Below, piece after piece: positions 1 through 52,640 of a stretch of 64,000 bases of DNA. Under the pieces are notes generated by a model. The model did no database searches. It was not told the origin of the DNA and saw only the letters and a list, made by a program, of their open reading frames with translations. The stretch spans positions 1-64,000 of the forward strand of contig NZ_BIXZ01000005.1 in assembly GCF_005406125.1 (NCBI RefSeq), written 5' to 3'. The stretch's first letter is position 1. Every line of letters starts with the position of its first letter. The DNA comes from Haloarcula mannanilytica. GTDB taxonomy: Archaea > Halobacteriota > Halobacteria > Halobacteriales > Haloarculaceae. The position numbers were made by a program, and so were the translations under genes.

Positions 1-120
1 TGGTTCAAGTACCGGCTTGTGCCTGATCTCTCGTCGCTGAAAGACTACATCTTACGAGGAGTGAACACGATCAGCGAACCAAACATTTGGCCGTATCTTA
101 TCGGTAAAGATTCGACTTAA
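1..120 (+). CDS. 3' end of an unidentified gene (cut by window edge)
   Basis: Frame 1 is open from the left edge to a TAA at 118-120 and would encode the last 39 residues of a protein (starts WFKYRLVPDL, ends YLIGKDST). I do not recognise it. It stops one base before the readable part of the transposase remnant that begins near 122. The ISH3-type N-terminus is missing there, so this ORF may have been cut or joined by a rearrangement. It could also be chance open frame. Confidence 0.3.
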   Translation, partial: WFKYRLVPDLSSLKDYILRGVNTISEPNIWPYLIGKDST

Positions 121-121
121 T

Positions 122-1171
122 CACTATGAGGACATCTACGAGGTTCTCGTCGGCGCTTGCGCCGACGGGACCTCGATATCTGAACTCTGCGAGACCAGTG
201 AAAATTCTCCCCACGAAAACACGGTTCTGTACCACCTCCGCGAAAAATTCGACCTAACGTCGGTTGAACAAGTCGGGAACGCACTTCTGCAAAAGGGCGT
301 TTTAGAGGTGCTTCCCGAGCAGGTGGAAATCGTCGTGGATCTCCACCTGCGTCCCTACTACGGTGACGAAGACGAGACAGATGGCCTCTATCACTCGGAA
401 GCGAAGCGTGGAACTACCGCGTTCCACGCGTATGCGACACTGTACGCGCGTGTGAGAAATTCGATACACGATAGCGGTGCGCCGTCTTGTCGACGGCGAC
501 ACCGCCAGCAATGTCTTGGCTGAGTTTCTTGGCCTCCTCGACGGCCTTGACCTCGGCGTCAAGGCCGTCTATCTTGACCGGGAATTCTACGATAGCAAGT
601 GTCTCACGCTCCTTCAGGCTCACAACTACGCGTACATGATGCCAATTGTCCGATGGGGAAAGACGATCAAGCAGGAACTCTCGGAAGGATGAAGTCGCGT
701 CATCCAACACGAGCTGACAGGGAAACTCGACGGTCACAGCTGGACCATCGATTTCCCGTCTACATCGACTGCACCTACCAAAAATGATGGTACGACGAAC
801 ATGGGGTGGCGCGTCAGCGGCGTAGCCGTGACGCGCCGTTTATCCAGACACCACGAGATGCGCGATACCACTACGCGAAACGCTTCGGTATCGAGGCCAG
901 CTACCGACTCTCCGAACAAAGCATCGTGACGACCACAATACAAGATCCGGTCGTACGGTTGCTGTACGTCGTGGTGAGTCTACTCTTGCAGAATGTCTGG
1001 CGGCACCTCCATTGGGAGTATGTGGCGACGCCCCGCCGTGGCGGGCGTCGCCTCTGGCCATGGTCGTTCCAAGAGTTCATCAACATGCTGTGTCGAGCAG
1101 CGTGGACGGCCCTCGCAGTGCGTCGGGCCGTCCCCGTCAATCGGCCACCTGATGACCGGTTCTACCGGTAA
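122..1171 (+). pseudogene. ISH3-family transposase remnant, multiply broken
   Basis: The translation follows the haloarchaeal ISH3-type (ISH27/ISH51-like) DDE transposase from its N-terminal third to its natural C-terminus (ends PPDDRFYR). Recognisable blocks are LPEQVEIVVDLHLRPYYGD, the LDREFYDS block, and the C-terminal RYHYAKRFGIEASYR block. The frame changes near 461 (frame 2 to frame 3). A nonsense TGA at 690-692 replaces the Trp expected after SEG. The frame changes back near 750, and another TGA lies at 785-787. The first roughly 50 residues are absent. It cannot make active transposase. No clear terminal inverted repeats were identified. Confidence 0.85.
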
Positions 1172-1790
1172 TCACTGATCGAGCACGCCTCTTCAGGAGT
1201 GGCAACGCTGTCTCGGTCGGCGGCTGATAATGGTCTCGGGACGATCTGAAAGCTCATTCTCAGTTCAGGAGGAACAGCGACTCTACTCCTACTTCTCAAA
1301 GAAGGCTATACGGTAGATGGATGATTTATATGCTGGTATCTAAAAACGGCTTAAAAGAGTTTTTTCTAGGTAAATTCGGACGGTATTGAGAAGCTAGAAT
1401 GAAATATTAGTAAGAGGACAGGAACCTCTGAAACCCAATTAGATCGGTGTAAACTTGGATTACGGCTCTTTGAATCGGTTATCTTTTCCTCACCCACTAG
1501 CTTTCAAACCTTCTCTGAGCCATTAATCGCCGCCGACCGCGACAGCTCTATACCCGCTCGGCGAAGATCAACTGTTACAGACAGCTCGTTGGGACAGAAA
1601 AGTAGGCTCAGATAGATTAGCTGGCGACGCATTGTAAGGTACTGAGACTGGTTGTCCGACAGATCTGGAAAGTAGCTACTTAAGTAGTTGCCACGATGAA
1701 ATAAATTACCCATCACTGAACCGTCGCTCGTTTGGACGGTGAAGTAGCAATAACGAAACACTCAAACCGCCTCCACAAAACGCCTACAGC
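1172..1790. other. Gene-poor AT-richer spacer between IS remnant and DUF4330-type gene
   Basis: This stretch has clearly lower GC than the rest of the window and no ORF I trust. A minus-strand 85-codon open frame (1504-1761) has no recognisable family and ordinary rather than acidic composition, so it is probably chance. The part next to 1171 should contain the right end of the decayed ISH3-type element. The part before 1791 should contain the promoter of the next gene, where A/T-rich stretches are visible around 1698-1715. Confidence 0.5.
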
Positions 1791-3206
1791 ATGGCAGATG
1801 GTCGCTCGTCACCCCTCCTCAATGATGAGGGTAGTCTCTTCGGGCTTATTAATATTGTTGATGCACTGGCCGTCCTACTTGTCCTTGCAGTTGTTGTCGC
1901 AGGCGCAGCACTCGTCCTCCAGCCAGACTCGGAGCCACCGGATCGGACAACAACCAACGTCACGCTTGATCTCGGCCCACAGCCACAGTACCTCGTCTCC
2001 GAGATCAACGAAGGCGACACATACAGCCCGAATAGTGACTCCGAACTCACAGTCACGGATGTCCACCTCACCCCACAGGACGACCAGACGCGAGTCATCC
2101 TTCGTACGACAATCGAAGGCCCCACCAGCGGTGACAGTCTCTCGTACTCGGGCGCACCGCTTCGCCTTAGCCGCTCACTGGCTATCGCGACAAGTCGATA
2201 CGAGGTGAGCGGGCAGATACGAGCTGTCAGTGGCGACAACAGCCTTGAAACGGAAACCACAACTGTTGTCCTCCGGGACACGATGGCCACCGCTGAAACC
2301 CGTGCCGTGACCGCTGGCGATGAGATCTGGATCGGTGGCCGGACTGTCGCGACCGTTGAGGATGTGGCTGCGTACGCACGCGAAAACGCCAGCCAACAGA
2401 CCGTCTTCATTGAAGCTGACCTCGAGACATATACACAGCAGGGTCGCCAGCGGTTCGGAAACAGGCAGGTCCGGCCCGGACAGCCAATTACGCTCTCAGC
2501 GGCGGAATACACAATCGACGGGCGTCTCGAACAGGTTGGCAGCGGTCTCCAGCCAACAACTGCCGATGTACTCGTCGAGACGACTGTCAACGCTGAAACA
2601 GCCAACGATATCGCCGCCGGTGACGTAGCGACCGTGGCTGGCCACGACACAGCCGAAATCGAGACTGTCACCACCTACGACACACAGAACCCCGACCGCA
2701 AGCGCGTCCTCGCCGGCCTCGCATTGACGACGCTCGAAGACGGTGACCGCCAGCGGTTCGGAAGCGCATACGTCCAGCGTGGGAATAATATATCCATCTC
2801 GACCGCCAGCTACGAACTCTCCGGCGCTATCGAACGCGTCGGCGCGCTCGAACCGCGTGGCACACTCGGAAATCGGACGGTAACGCTCCGTATGGCCGAC
2901 GTTCGTGAGGATATGGCCAGTGCAATCGAACCCGGCATGACCGAAACCAGTCGCGGCGAAACGATTGCGCGTATCAGCCGCGTTAACACTGAATCATCGG
3001 TCATCATCACGACGGGAGACAACGGCTCAGTCAACGTCGTGGACCATCCGTTCCTGCGTGACGTCACCATCACAGCCGAACTGCAAGTCCGGGAAACGAC
3101 AGGCGGTGTGCAGTTCAAGGGCGAGTCCATCCAGCAGGGGTCGTCGGTTGTGATCAATCTGGAGACGCTCACAATCAAGGCAGATGTGGTGAGTGTTGGC
3201 ACTTAG
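1791..3206 (+). CDS. Membrane-anchored DUF4330-type repeat protein
   Basis: The product has 471 residues. After a short charged N-terminus it has one membrane segment (about 20-43, INIVDALAVLLVLAVVVAG) and then a long extracytoplasmic acidic region, consistent with DUF4330 proteins of haloarchaea. The outer region contains repeated units ending in a pattern like Y-x-hydrophobic-x-G-x-I-x-x-V-G (about residues 137, 239, 342 and the C-terminus), each preceded by Q-x-G-x-x-I, so it is probably a string of small beta domains. The function is unknown. The ATG at 1791 is chosen because the hydrophobic anchor follows directly. It is the only intact gene in the decayed left end. Confidence 0.75.
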   Translation: MADGRSSPLLNDEGSLFGLINIVDALAVLLVLAVVVAGAALVLQPDSEPPDRTTTNVTLDLGPQPQYLVSEINEGDTYSPNSDSELTVTDVHLTPQDDQTRVILRTTIEGPTSGDSLSYSGAPLRLSRSLAIATSRYEVSGQIRAVSGDNSLETETTTVVLRDTMATAETRAVTAGDEIWIGGRTVATVEDVAAYARENASQQTVFIEADLETYTQQGRQRFGNRQVRPGQPITLSAAEYTIDGRLEQVGSGLQPTTADVLVETTVNAETANDIAAGDVATVAGHDTAEIETVTTYDTQNPDRKRVLAGLALTTLEDGDRQRFGSAYVQRGNNISISTASYELSGAIERVGALEPRGTLGNRTVTLRMADVREDMASAIEPGMTETSRGETIARISRVNTESSVIITTGDNGSVNVVDHPFLRDVTITAELQVRETTGGVQFKGESIQQGSSVVINLETLTIKADVVSVGT

Positions 3207-48490: not shown

Positions 48491-48546
48491 CTTTAGAACA
48501 GTTGACTCCGTAGCGACCAGTAATGACAGCAACAGGTGGTGTCTGA
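48491..48546 (+). promoter_or_regulatory. topA promoter with leaderless mini-ORF and internal SD
   Basis: A TATA-like CTTTAGAA (48491-48498) predicts transcription from about 48520. Three bases later is an ATG (48523) that opens a 7-codon frame (MTATGGV). Its TGA (48544-48546) overlaps the topA ATG (TGATG). An AGGTG (48533-48537) in it could serve as the topA Shine-Dalgarno, at 8 nt. Translation of the leader would end at the topA start. Confidence 0.45.
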
Positions 48547-51500
48547 TGCGGCTGATTATCACCGAGAAGGACAACGCCGCCCGTCGCATCGCGGAGATTC
48601 TCTCCGAGGGGAGCGCCTCTGCGAGCCGGCAAAACGGCGTCAACGTCTATCGGTGGGGAAACACCCGCGTCGTCGGCCTCTCCGGCCACGTCGTCGGCGT
48701 CGACTTCCCCGAGGAGTACAACGACTGGCGCGACGTGGAGCCGGTCGAACTCATCGACGCCGACGTGACGAAGGAACCGACCCAGGAGAACATCGTCACG
48801 ACGCTGAAGCAACTGGCCCGTGAGGCCGACGAGGCCACTATCGCGACTGACTACGACCGCGAGGGGGAACTCATCGGCAAGGAGGCCTACGAGCTCATCC
48901 GCGAGGAGACCGACGCGCCCGTCGACCGCGTCCGCTTCTCCTCGATCACAGAGCGAGAGGTCCGGGACGCATTCGCCAACCCCGACGACATCGACTTCGA
49001 TCTGGCGGCCGCGGGCGAGGCCCGCCAGATTATCGACCTCGTGTGGGGCGCTGCGCTGACCCGCTTCCTCTCGCTGTCGGCCCGGCAGCTGGGCGACGAC
49101 TTCATCTCCGTTGGCCGGGTCCAGTCCCCGACGCTGAAGCTCATCGTCGACCGCGAGCGCGAGATTCAGGCCTTCGACCCCGAGGATTACTGGGAAATCT
49201 TCGCCGATCTCCAGAAGAACGGCTCGGGCTTCGAAGCCCAGTACTTCTACGACGACGACGGCAAAGAGGCCGAGCGGGTGTGGGACGAGAGCGAGGCCGA
49301 TTCCGCCTACGCCGACCTGACGAGCGTCGACGCGGCGACGGTGACGAGCGTCCGCCGCCGGACTCGCACCGACAGCCCGCCGACGCCGTTCAACACCACC
49401 GCCTTCATCTCCGCGGCCAGTTCGCTGGGCTACTCCGCCCAGCGCGCCATGTCCATCGCCGAGGAGCTGTACACCACCGGCTACATCACCTACCCCCGGA
49501 CCGACAACACGGTGTATCCCGACGACCTCGAAGAGGACGCGCTGCTCGATGAGTTCGTTGGGGCCGGCCATTTCGGCGAGGACGCCGAGGCGCTGCTGGA
49601 GCAAGACGACATCACCGCCACCGAGGGCGACGAGGAGACCACCGACCACCCGCCCATCCATCCGACGGGCGAGATTCCGCCGAAGGCCGACCTCTCTGAC
49701 GACGAATGGGAGATATACGAACTGGTCGTCCGGCGCTTCTTCGCGACGGTCGCCGAGGCCGCCACGTGGGAGCACCTCCGCGTCGTCGCCGACGCCGGCG
49801 GTCGCTCGCTGAAGGCCAACGGCAAACGGCTGGTCGAACCGGGCTACCACGCGGTGTACCCCTACTCCAGCGCCAGCGAGAACCACGTCCCAGATGTCGA
49901 GGAGGGCGAGGAACTGGCGATTTCCGAGGTACGGATGGAGGACAAACAGACGCAGCCACCGCGTCGCTACGGTCAGTCTCGGCTTATCCAGACGATGGAG
50001 GACAAGGGACTTGGGACGAAATGCCTCACAGCGGACAGTAACGTGCTTGTCAGGTCCGAAAACGGAGATATCGAGCGTCGGACGGTTGATTCTCTCTTTG
50101 ACGACGGACAGGTGGTTCTCGCGGATGGAGATACAGATATTGCGGTCAGTAAAGAGACACCGACAGTCCTCTCGCTTGACGAATCGGCCGAACAAGTCTC
50201 GGAGCGGGAGTCGACGCTAATCAGTGAGCGGCCGCTGAGTGATGAAGAGGGCGTCCGTGCAATCGTGACCAGTCGTGGGACGATTACAGTTACCGACGAC
50301 CATCCGATGTACGTCTGGCAGGACGGCGAAGTCACAGTCTGTCCAGCGTCAGATATCGAAGCGGGAACCGAGCTTGTCGCGGTCCGTAGGCCACCGGACA
50401 CAATGGTCGATCCGTCCGACGAGACAGTGCTTTCGTGGGATACGTTTGCTGCAGACTGCGGCAAGAACTCGAAGCTCTACGGCGTCGATTGTGGAACCGA
50501 ACTCGCGGCACAGCGAGAGGCGAGTGATGAAAGCCAAGCCGCGTTTGCTGACCGATACAGTTCCTACGGGTCTGCAATCGGAAAATACGAACGCGGTGAG
50601 AAAGATGTCCCCGTCTGGCTGCTCGGCAAGTTGGATATCCGGCCGGACAGAATTCACGGTCTGAATTACGAGAAGAGCTTCGGGAATCCGTTCCCCTTGG
50701 AGTGGTCACCGGATCTGGCGCGGGTCATTGGCTGCCTCTTGGGTGACGGCTCGATACACCATAACGACGACGAGAACGTCGTCGACGTGCGGTACCACAA
50801 CACGGACTCGGCATTGATACACCGATTCGCCCGTGATATCGAACGCGTATTCGATATCGAACCAACAGTCACCGCCCGGCCGGGAAGAGAAGCACACCAC
50901 AAACGAAAGTATCAGGTCGACGTTCCATCGGCAGTTGGCCGAGTCCTCGTGTACGTGCTCGAAACCGTGACCGAGAACGGAACACCGTCCCTTCCGGCCG
51001 CAGTTCGGCCAGCGTTCGTCGGTGCGCTGTTCGACGACGAGGGCCATATCTCCACTGAGGGGAAGGCCTTCATTTCGAACACGGACCACACACTTCTGAC
51101 GGGCGTGGGAGAAATGCTCGCCGAAATGGGCGTTGAAACGAAACTGGCCCCCGAGCAACACAAGCTCCATATCCGGGGACGGCGGAATCTTGAGCGATTC
51201 CTCGATCGAATACCCATCGCGTCGGACGAGAAGTTCTATCGTGGACTCGATGCACTTTCCACGTATGGAGTAACCACGAGGAAAGCGGAGCTACTGGAAG
51301 CGATTCAGCGAGAGCCGAAGACGAGTTCCACGCTCGCTGAGTCTCTCGGCGTCAGCCAGGGCAGCGTAAACAAGTATCTCCGCGAACTACGAGAGAGCGG
51401 CCACGTCAAAAAACAGATCGACGGGAGCAATCGCAGCCTGGATGAGAACAGAACAGTCCGGTACGTTGCGACTAATTTCGAGGGATCGGTGTACGCGACA

Positions 51501-52640
51501 CTCCGCGGCGAACCGTCGTCAGTCACCATCGAAGACGTGGAGCACCGCGAGTACGACGGCCCCGTGTACGACCTCACTGTCAACGAGGCGGCACCGAACT
51601 TCGCCGTCGAGGGCGGTGCAGTGGTTCACAACTCGACCCGCCACAACTCCATCGAGAAACTGTACGACCGCGGCTACATCGAGGGCGACCCGCCCCGGCC
51701 GACGACGCTGGCGATGGCCGTCGTCGAGGCCGCAGAGGAGTTCGCCGACCACGTCGTCAGCGACGATATGACCGCCCAGCTGGAGGCGGACATGACCGCC
51801 ATCGCCAACGGCGAGGCGACGCTCGACGACGTGGCTGACGAGTCCCGGGAGATGCTCAAGCGCGTCTTCGACGAACTGCGGGACTCCCGCGAGGAGATCG
51901 GCGAACACCTTCAGGAGTCGCTGAAGGCCGACAAGACGCTCGGTCCCTGTCCCAAGTGCGGCGAGGACATGCTGGTCCGGCGCTCGCGCCAGGGGTCGTA
52001 CTTCGTCGGCTGTGACGGCTTCCCCGAGTGTCGCAACACGCTCCCGCTGCCCTCGACGGGCGAGCCGCAAGTGCTCGAAGACCACTGCGAGGAACACGAC
52101 ATGCACCACGTGAAGATGCTCGCCGGGCGGGACACCTTCGTCCACGGCTGTCCCCGCTGTGAGGCCGAGAAAGCCGAGGAGAGCGAGGACGAGGTCATTG
52201 GGCCGTGTCCCGATTGTGGTTCCGAGCACAACGGAGAGTTAGCTATCAAACACCTCCGCTCGGGCTCCCGTCTGGTCGGCTGTACGCGCTACCCCGACTG
52301 TGACTACTCGCTGCCGCTGCCCCGCAACGGCGACATCTCGGTGACCGAAGCGTTTTGTGAGGAACACGACCTGCCGGAACTGGTCATCGACGCCGACAGC
52401 GACGACCCCTGGGAGCTTGGCTGTCCCATCTGTAACTACGAGGAGTACCAGGCCCGCACCGCCGTCGAAGATCTGGAGGACCTGAGCGGCATCGGGTCGG
52501 CGACCGCTGAAAAGCTTGGTGACGCTGGCGTCGACTCGCTGGCGGCGCTTCGGGAGGCCGACCCCGACAACGTCGCCACCGAGGTACAGGGCGTCAGCGC
52601 CACCCAGGTCCGGGAGTGGCAGGACGAACTCGAAGCCTGA
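48546..52640 (+). CDS. topA: DNA topoisomerase I interrupted by an intein
   Basis: The 1364-residue precursor becomes an 827-residue type IA topoisomerase after splicing. Extein parts: TOPRIM (MRLIITEKDNAARRIA, DYDREGELIG), catalytic Tyr316 in GYITYPRTDN, then GLGTK joined to STRHNSIEKLYDRGY after splicing. Two or three Cys4 zinc ribbons follow (CPKCGEDM, CDGFPEC, CPDCGSEH, CPICN), and a C-terminal helix-hairpin-helix (DLSGIGSATAEKL). It relaxes negative supercoils. The spliced product should be normal in size. Confidence 0.95.
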   Translation: MRLIITEKDNAARRIAEILSEGSASASRQNGVNVYRWGNTRVVGLSGHVVGVDFPEEYNDWRDVEPVELIDADVTKEPTQENIVTTLKQLAREADEATIATDYDREGELIGKEAYELIREETDAPVDRVRFSSITEREVRDAFANPDDIDFDLAAAGEARQIIDLVWGAALTRFLSLSARQLGDDFISVGRVQSPTLKLIVDREREIQAFDPEDYWEIFADLQKNGSGFEAQYFYDDDGKEAERVWDESEADSAYADLTSVDAATVTSVRRRTRTDSPPTPFNTTAFISAASSLGYSAQRAMSIAEELYTTGYITYPRTDNTVYPDDLEEDALLDEFVGAGHFGEDAEALLEQDDITATEGDEETTDHPPIHPTGEIPPKADLSDDEWEIYELVVRRFFATVAEAATWEHLRVVADAGGRSLKANGKRLVEPGYHAVYPYSSASENHVPDVEEGEELAISEVRMEDKQTQPPRRYGQSRLIQTMEDKGLGTKCLTADSNVLVRSENGDIERRTVDSLFDDGQVVLADGDTDIAVSKETPTVLSLDESAEQVSERESTLISERPLSDEEGVRAIVTSRGTITVTDDHPMYVWQDGEVTVCPASDIEAGTELVAVRRPPDTMVDPSDETVLSWDTFAADCGKNSKLYGVDCGTELAAQREASDESQAAFADRYSSYGSAIGKYERGEKDVPVWLLGKLDIRPDRIHGLNYEKSFGNPFPLEWSPDLARVIGCLLGDGSIHHNDDENVVDVRYHNTDSALIHRFARDIERVFDIEPTVTARPGREAHHKRKYQVDVPSAVGRVLVYVLETVTENGTPSLPAAVRPAFVGALFDDEGHISTEGKAFISNTDHTLLTGVGEMLAEMGVETKLAPEQHKLHIRGRRNLERFLDRIPIASDEKFYRGLDALSTYGVTTRKAELLEAIQREPKTSSTLAESLGVSQGSVNKYLRELRESGHVKKQIDGSNRSLDENRTVRYVATNFEGSVYATLRGEPSSVTIEDVEHREYDGPVYDLTVNEAAPNFAVEGGAVVHNSTRHNSIEKLYDRGYIEGDPPRPTTLAMAVVEAAEEFADHVVSDDMTAQLEADMTAIANGEATLDDVADESREMLKRVFDELRDSREEIGEHLQESLKADKTLGPCPKCGEDMLVRRSRQGSYFVGCDGFPECRNTLPLPSTGEPQVLEDHCEEHDMHHVKMLAGRDTFVHGCPRCEAEKAEESEDEVIGPCPDCGSEHNGELAIKHLRSGSRLVGCTRYPDCDYSLPLPRNGDISVTEAFCEEHDLPELVIDADSDDPWELGCPICNYEEYQARTAVEDLEDLSGIGSATAEKLGDAGVDSLAALREADPDNVATEVQGVSATQVREWQDELEA
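50022..51632 (+). mobile_element. TopA intein with LAGLIDADG homing endonuclease and HTH modules
   Basis: The in-frame 537-residue segment (residues 493-1029 of TopA) starts with Cys493 and ends in VVHN followed by Ser. It splits the conserved GTK/STRHN. Block B is present (TDDHPMYV) and block F (YDLTVNEAAPNFAVEG). The endonuclease has two LAGLIDADG-type motifs with aspartates, IGCLLGDGS (728-736) and FVGALFDDEG (824-833). It also contains an XRE-like HTH (about 650-700: QAAFADRY, then KYERG) and a winged helix (about 913-965: KTSSTLAESLGVSQGSVNKYLRELRESG). By eye its DNA is less GC-rich than the exteins. Confidence 0.93.

Follow-up and report, generated by a model that had tools for sequence, protein, structure and literature searches.

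A full-length topA intein in Haloarcula mannanilytica and codon-set switching at its insertion site in intein-free alleles

The window analysed here, a stretch of 64,000 nucleotides (nt) at the start of contig NZ_BIXZ01000005.1 of Haloarcula mannanilytica, contains topA, the gene of an archaeal DNA topoisomerase I, and within it an insert with the features of an intein. The topA reading frame comprises 1364 codons with no internal stop. The insert occupies residues 493-1029 of the TopA precursor, in frame between GLGTK and STRHN; it starts with CLTADSNVL and ends with GGAVVHN, followed by Ser at position +1, and the exteins joined without it give a protein of 827 amino acids (aa). The locus is organized as follows:

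48546-52640, forward strand: topA, encoding the intein-containing precursor of archaeal DNA topoisomerase I, 1364 aa and stop (reading frame, translation and profiles)
48546-50021, forward strand: N-extein, 492 aa, C-terminal GLGTK (93-98% identity to the uninterrupted genes of 13 same-genus species)
50022-51632, forward strand: intein, 537 aa, from C1 to HN537 (motifs, profiles and genes of close relatives without it)
51633-52640, forward strand: C-extein, 335 aa and stop, opening with S+1 TRHN (translation and comparison with uninterrupted genes)

Profile searches identified the host protein as DNA topoisomerase I (NCBIfam NF005555, 1012 bits against a cut-off of 635) with the Pfam domains Topoisom_bac, Toprim, Zn_ribbon_Top1 and HHH_5. 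In the 13 same-genus species the flanks are contiguous (GLGTK/STRHN) with no insert, and these uninterrupted alleles in close relatives exclude chance as an explanation. The GC content of the insert is 57.8% versus 66% in the exteins, and at third codon positions 65.5% versus 85-88%. The genome of H. mannanilytica carries a single copy of the intein, the remaining matches being short and weak. A first-pass annotation of this DNA had proposed a 537-residue intein at 50022-51632 splitting the GTK/STRHN motif, and the reading frame, the translation and the empty alleles agree with it exactly to the base. Its description of the insertion as lying at a catalytic-site motif was correct as to a conserved motif but imprecise as to catalysis: the catalytic Tyr, within GYITYPRTD, has position 316 and lies 176 residues away from the insertion after residue 492, and the conserved motif is thus outside the Tyr motif.

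The insert contains the full set of expected splicing blocks and both LAGLIDADG Asp residues, conserved across 14 aligned alleles of the family, with two helix-turn-helix (HTH) parts:

50022-50048, forward strand: block A with the Cys1 nucleophile (CLTADSNVL); C1 invariant in the 14 alleles
50289-50318, forward strand: block B, TxxH (VTDDHPMYVW); T91 and H94 invariant in the 14 alleles
50493-50612, forward strand: XRE-like HTH, residues 158-197, between splicing and endonuclease parts (Pfam HTH_31, E-value 4e-4, under the curated cut-off)
50715-50756, forward strand: LAGLIDADG motif 1 (LARVIGCLLGDGSI); G241, D242, G243 and S244 invariant in the 14 alleles
51006-51050, forward strand: LAGLIDADG motif 2 (RPAFVGALFDDEGHI), in Pfam LAGLIDADG_3 (residues 331-397); D338, D339, E340 and G341 invariant in the 14 alleles
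51264-51431, forward strand: MarR-like winged HTH, residues 415-470 (Pfam MarR_2, 33.5 bits, cut-off 27)
51546-51581, forward strand: block F (REYDGPVYDLTV), from its sequence motif
51597-51632, forward strand: block G with the terminal Asn (NFAVEGGAVVHN); H536 and N537 invariant in the 14 alleles

The class-1 intein features thus observed were an in-frame insert, insert-free orthologues, Cys1, TxxH, His-Asn and Ser at +1. The splice residues (Cys first, HN last, then Ser), block B and the two Asp-containing LAGLIDADG motifs named in the first-pass annotation were therefore all found, and the splice-site residues, checked for mutation, proved intact. Profile scores were 20.5 bits for the intein C-terminal region (TIGR01443, above its cut-off of 15.6), 18.2 bits for the N-terminal region (TIGR01445, cut-off 24.5) and 34.8 bits for the Pfam intein-splicing profile PF14890, just under its cut-off of 35.8, and LAGLIDADG_3 (PF14528) scored 51 bits. 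An AlphaFold2 model of the intein (mean predicted local distance difference test score 75) placed helices at residues 158-167, 172-178 and 183-190 of the XRE-like HTH, and helices at 416-430, 435-442 and 446-458 with a strand at 462-467 in the MarR-like part. Along most of its length it matched the folds of PI-TkoII (2cw7, E-value 9e-14) and PI-PfuI (1dq3) best, with a sequence identity of 14-17%; unlike these two, the topA intein carries the XRE-like and MarR-like parts. The predicted endonuclease core has a LAGLIDADG fold and matched I-DmoI with a TM score (TMt) of 0.72. The MarR-like part alone is matched by many short haloarchaeal open reading frames (ORFs), and because these match that part only, a host regulator may have been its origin.

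From these sequence features we are very sure that we are dealing with a typical intein made up of a splicing and an endonuclease part. It is highly probable that it is of full length and of class 1, that its homing endonuclease is of the LAGLIDADG type with two motifs and that it belongs to the known topA allele; splicing and homing are both likely to be functional. Counting against this interpretation, the AlphaFold2 model is of low confidence in the splicing part and the synonymous divergence of the intein, discussed below, is possibly inflated by weaker codon bias. Most likely, the 1364-aa precursor would splice itself: Cys1 would perform the N-S shift, Ser+1 would receive the N-extein and Asn537 would cyclise, releasing a topoisomerase I of 827 aa. 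Where a cell lacks the intein, topA would be cleaved across GTK/STRHN by the endonuclease, and repair templated by the intein-bearing copy would insert the intein into the cut gene.

A TopA intein mentioned in the first-pass annotation is indeed on record: Soucy et al. (2014; PMC4071816, Tables 1 and 2) list 24 intein alleles for Halobacteria, and topA is one of them, represented by four halobacterial sequences and one other euryarchaeal sequence. The intein of H. mannanilytica is therefore a new sequence of a known kind. The host gene is shared, and the equivalence of the insertion sites rests on the allele name because the insertion residue is unstated in the text of that report. What is new here is the codon pattern of the target site in intein-free alleles, which concerns the following features:

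49992-50021, forward strand: left half of the putative homing target (clustered changes from -30 to +15 in the sister pair described below)
51633-51635, forward strand: +1 codon TCG, whose Ser is the C-extein nucleophile and which belongs to the putative homing target (allele survey: TCN in occupied alleles, TCN, AGY or GCN in empty ones)
51633-51647, forward strand: right half of the putative homing target

The survey of 172 intein-free alleles revealed a TCN serine codon at +1 in 64, an AGY serine codon in 42 and Ala in 66, and in the occupied alleles of the same set it was TCN in 23 of 23 (22 with full-length inteins, one with a mini-intein). TCN and AGY codons differ at two positions (PMC6872785), and a switch between the sets therefore takes a double change. 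On an extein tree built without the site region, the +1 serine switched codon set 24 times, ranking first of 37 Ser columns (runner-up 14; conserved Ser columns 0-8), and the arginine at +3 switched 22 times, ranking first of 43 Arg columns (median 3). Between close species pairs, the set at +1 had switched in 14 of the 37 Ser-Ser pairs versus 4 of 1211 comparisons at conserved Ser columns, the columns within one pair being partly dependent. Among 13 close same-genus species, +1 was the sole one of 39 invariant Ser codons polymorphic between the sets. The synonymous excess over the site as a whole ranked 1 of 769 at third positions among close relatives of H. mannanilytica, and 5 of 813 over 39 Ser-Ser pairs (19 with the +1 codon omitted). 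An independent-pairs test of occupancy against Ser gave the same direction throughout, with few pairs and a median p of 0.25. In two genomes whose main topA has Ala at +1, AGC encodes Ser at a further topA-like site (G062:C2:163309-163335 and G064:C2:136807-136833), which is probably a topA paralogue.

A sister pair with near-identical TopA proteins, one allele occupied (L013) and one empty (L121), showed 63 differences over 2469 nt. Between -30 and +15 around the insertion point lay 12 of them (1.1 expected), which makes this the most divergent 45-nt interval of the gene between the two. Polarised with L126 and L127, six of the 12 were derived in the empty L121, all synonymous and spread over 34 nt, and five were derived in the occupied L013, two of them amino-acid changes. 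These two replacements beside the insertion look as co-conversion would leave them. The L013 genome is a metagenome-assembled genome (MAG) and that of L121 a draft assembly; assembly error is possible, and such clustering is unlikely to arise from it.

These data suggest, tentatively and at slightly under an even chance, that intein-free hosts repeatedly evade the topA homing endonuclease through silent codon-set switches in its target, at +1 from TCN to AGY for Ser and at +3 from CGN to AGR for Arg, or else by carrying Ala in the +1 position. The proposal draws on two amino acids ranking first at codons of the same site, on the lack of AGY in occupied alleles and on the sister pair. Ala is unable to serve as a C-extein nucleophile, and after a change from Ser to Ala splicing of an inserted intein would be expected to fail. 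A parallel by sequence exists at the MCM-d site, where empty alleles often have the non-splicing residue Pro at +1 and occupied ones Ser; Pro there allows no working intein-bearing allele and keeps endonuclease recognition, and its authors regard such alleles as invasion-resistant (PMC10643990). As in MCM-d, topA has empty alleles with a non-splicing residue at +1, but in topA this residue is Ala, and the Ser-type empty alleles switch codon sets. In the yeast system of WHO elements and FBA1 alleles (PMC7282813), a homing nuclease likewise faces a host gene whose target alleles are either sensitive or resistant; however, WHO elements are not inteins, and resistance there comes with a replaced 3' end of the gene.

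Several observations speak against evasion. MCM sites are cut even though two Haloferax species differ there, for the most part synonymously (PMC10643990), position +1 possibly tolerates both Ser and Ala, recombination may have left footprints at the site, and the synonymous excess over the whole site is weak in the new order-level set alone (1.22-fold, rank 96 of 813). Because of this last rank, the proposal of escape rests on the codon-set switches and not on the overall excess. If true, it would amount to an arms race at the DNA level between haloarchaeal hosts and the topA intein, resembling functional resistance alleles against gene drives, and would preserve, in nature and over the long term, a record of resistance alleles of the sort that engineered drives are expected to meet. 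Homing-cycle theory has long asked how alleles without an intein survive alongside an active homing nuclease; a signature of escape confined to few codons, which can be read at the nucleotide level from sequence databases, opens this question to direct testing by cleavage assay. A literature search, with subscription journals outside its reach, found no published signature of synonymous escape at intein sites.

The switching at +1 and +3 could instead reflect relaxed constraint or mutational intermediates at a protein position, with no escape from a nuclease, which is possible although doubtful. Ser and Ala are both accepted at +1 among the empty alleles, and human Topo IIIalpha reads GIGTDATHAE at the insertion motif, with Ala in the position that corresponds to +1. 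Relaxation would not readily account for the absence of Thr, Gly and Cys at +1 in all 172 empty alleles, for the lack of any switch at other mixed Ser/Ala columns of TopA (0 of 20, a small sample) or for the first rank of the invariant Arg codon at +3. Tolerance of a single residue also leaves unexplained the six synonymous changes of L121. The same trend was seen at the empty site of another intein, MCM-a, whose insertion point we take to be GDPGTGK/S: its +1 codon in 66 family genomes was TCN in 45, AGY in 11 and Cys in 10, and the serine of the SRFD motif of MCM, almost always TCN, was AGY in 1 of 115 genomes counted. This suggests that the escape proposed above, if true, is general to intein targets; the Cys codons at MCM-a are a possible bridge between TCN and AGY, in favour of mutational intermediates.

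An unlikely alternative is that the clustered changes are conversion tracts, left by inteins with foreign flanks that were later lost or by short stretches of a topA paralogue. The co-converted appearance of the L013 replacements and the AGC codons in the second topA-like sites of G062 and G064 are in its favour. Against it, AGY occurs at +1 in no occupied allele, which rules out the occupied alleles seen as its source, and the site flanks in H. mannanilytica showed no unusual divergence or similarity. A co-conversion tract flanking the insertion in H. mannanilytica itself was looked for and not found.

The distribution of the intein bears on whether homing continues. Beyond the published topA sequences (PMC4071816), it was found in 14 of 146 genomes of the family, always at the identical insertion point, with 532-538 aa and no stops, and relatives occur in DPANN and Thaumarchaeota MAGs. 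At the order level (392 genomes), 18 carried a full-length relative and one a mini-intein of 167 aa at the topA site, lacking the endonuclease and HTH parts (L173; G157, ORF 1-3003), which places it late in the homing cycle. Far outside Halobacteria (loci L149, L152, L153 and L155), Woesearchaeota and Nanoarchaeota MAGs have inteins about 27-34% identical at the GTK or GTR/STR point of TopA, and a Thaumarchaeota MAG has a TopA intein fragment ending VVHN/STRAE; flanks of GTK or GTR followed by STR were common to 27 of 27 occupied topA genes. A single-protein scan of genome contigs returned no relative and an alignment query 22 genome loci; neither search matched a viral contig, and because the alignment query matched none, no viral carrier is known. 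One extein tree required at least 11 changes in intein presence, and a larger one, in which occupied genomes of the order were included on purpose, at least 14; occupied species nest among empty ones.

The nearest homologue of the H. mannanilytica intein among the genomes searched is that of G019 (87% aa identity). Synonymous divergence (dS) of the exteins was 0.28 between H. mannanilytica (G000) and an empty species and 0.24 between G019 and an empty species, compared with 0.39 between G000 and G019, and the intein dS of the latter pair was 0.56. Since the exteins are nearer to those of empty species and intein dS exceeds extein dS, this suggests that the two inteins arrived separately. The ratio of nonsynonymous to synonymous divergence (dN/dS) in this pair was 0.12 over the whole intein and, part by part, lowest in LAGLIDADG at 0.08; LAGLIDADG values overall ranged from 0.06 to 0.14. 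These ratios indicate purifying selection on the endonuclease. Judging by this constraint and by the repeated changes in presence, homing is probably still active.

It is very unlikely that the intein is instead inert and vertically inherited, splicing with a dead endonuclease and patchy through repeated loss. Presence and absence counts do not distinguish gain from loss, and the endonuclease-less mini-intein of L173 occupies the same site. The invariant GDGS and DDEG motifs, the low LAGLIDADG dN/dS, the nesting of occupied species among empty ones and the five derived L013 changes within 45 nt of the insertion, such as co-conversion leaves, all argue against it. There is next to no probability that this stretch of TopA is an ordinary domain of the protein, with no point found in favour of that reading: it is refuted by the empty alleles of close relatives, in which the stretch is not kept as ordinary sequence, by the restriction of the stretch to 14 of the 146 family genomes and by the complete intein blocks.

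One of the occupied loci, L017 (G095), has an intein and flanks that match L009, L010 and L015 of another genus almost perfectly, and for this reason its MAG contig may have been binned to the wrong genome.

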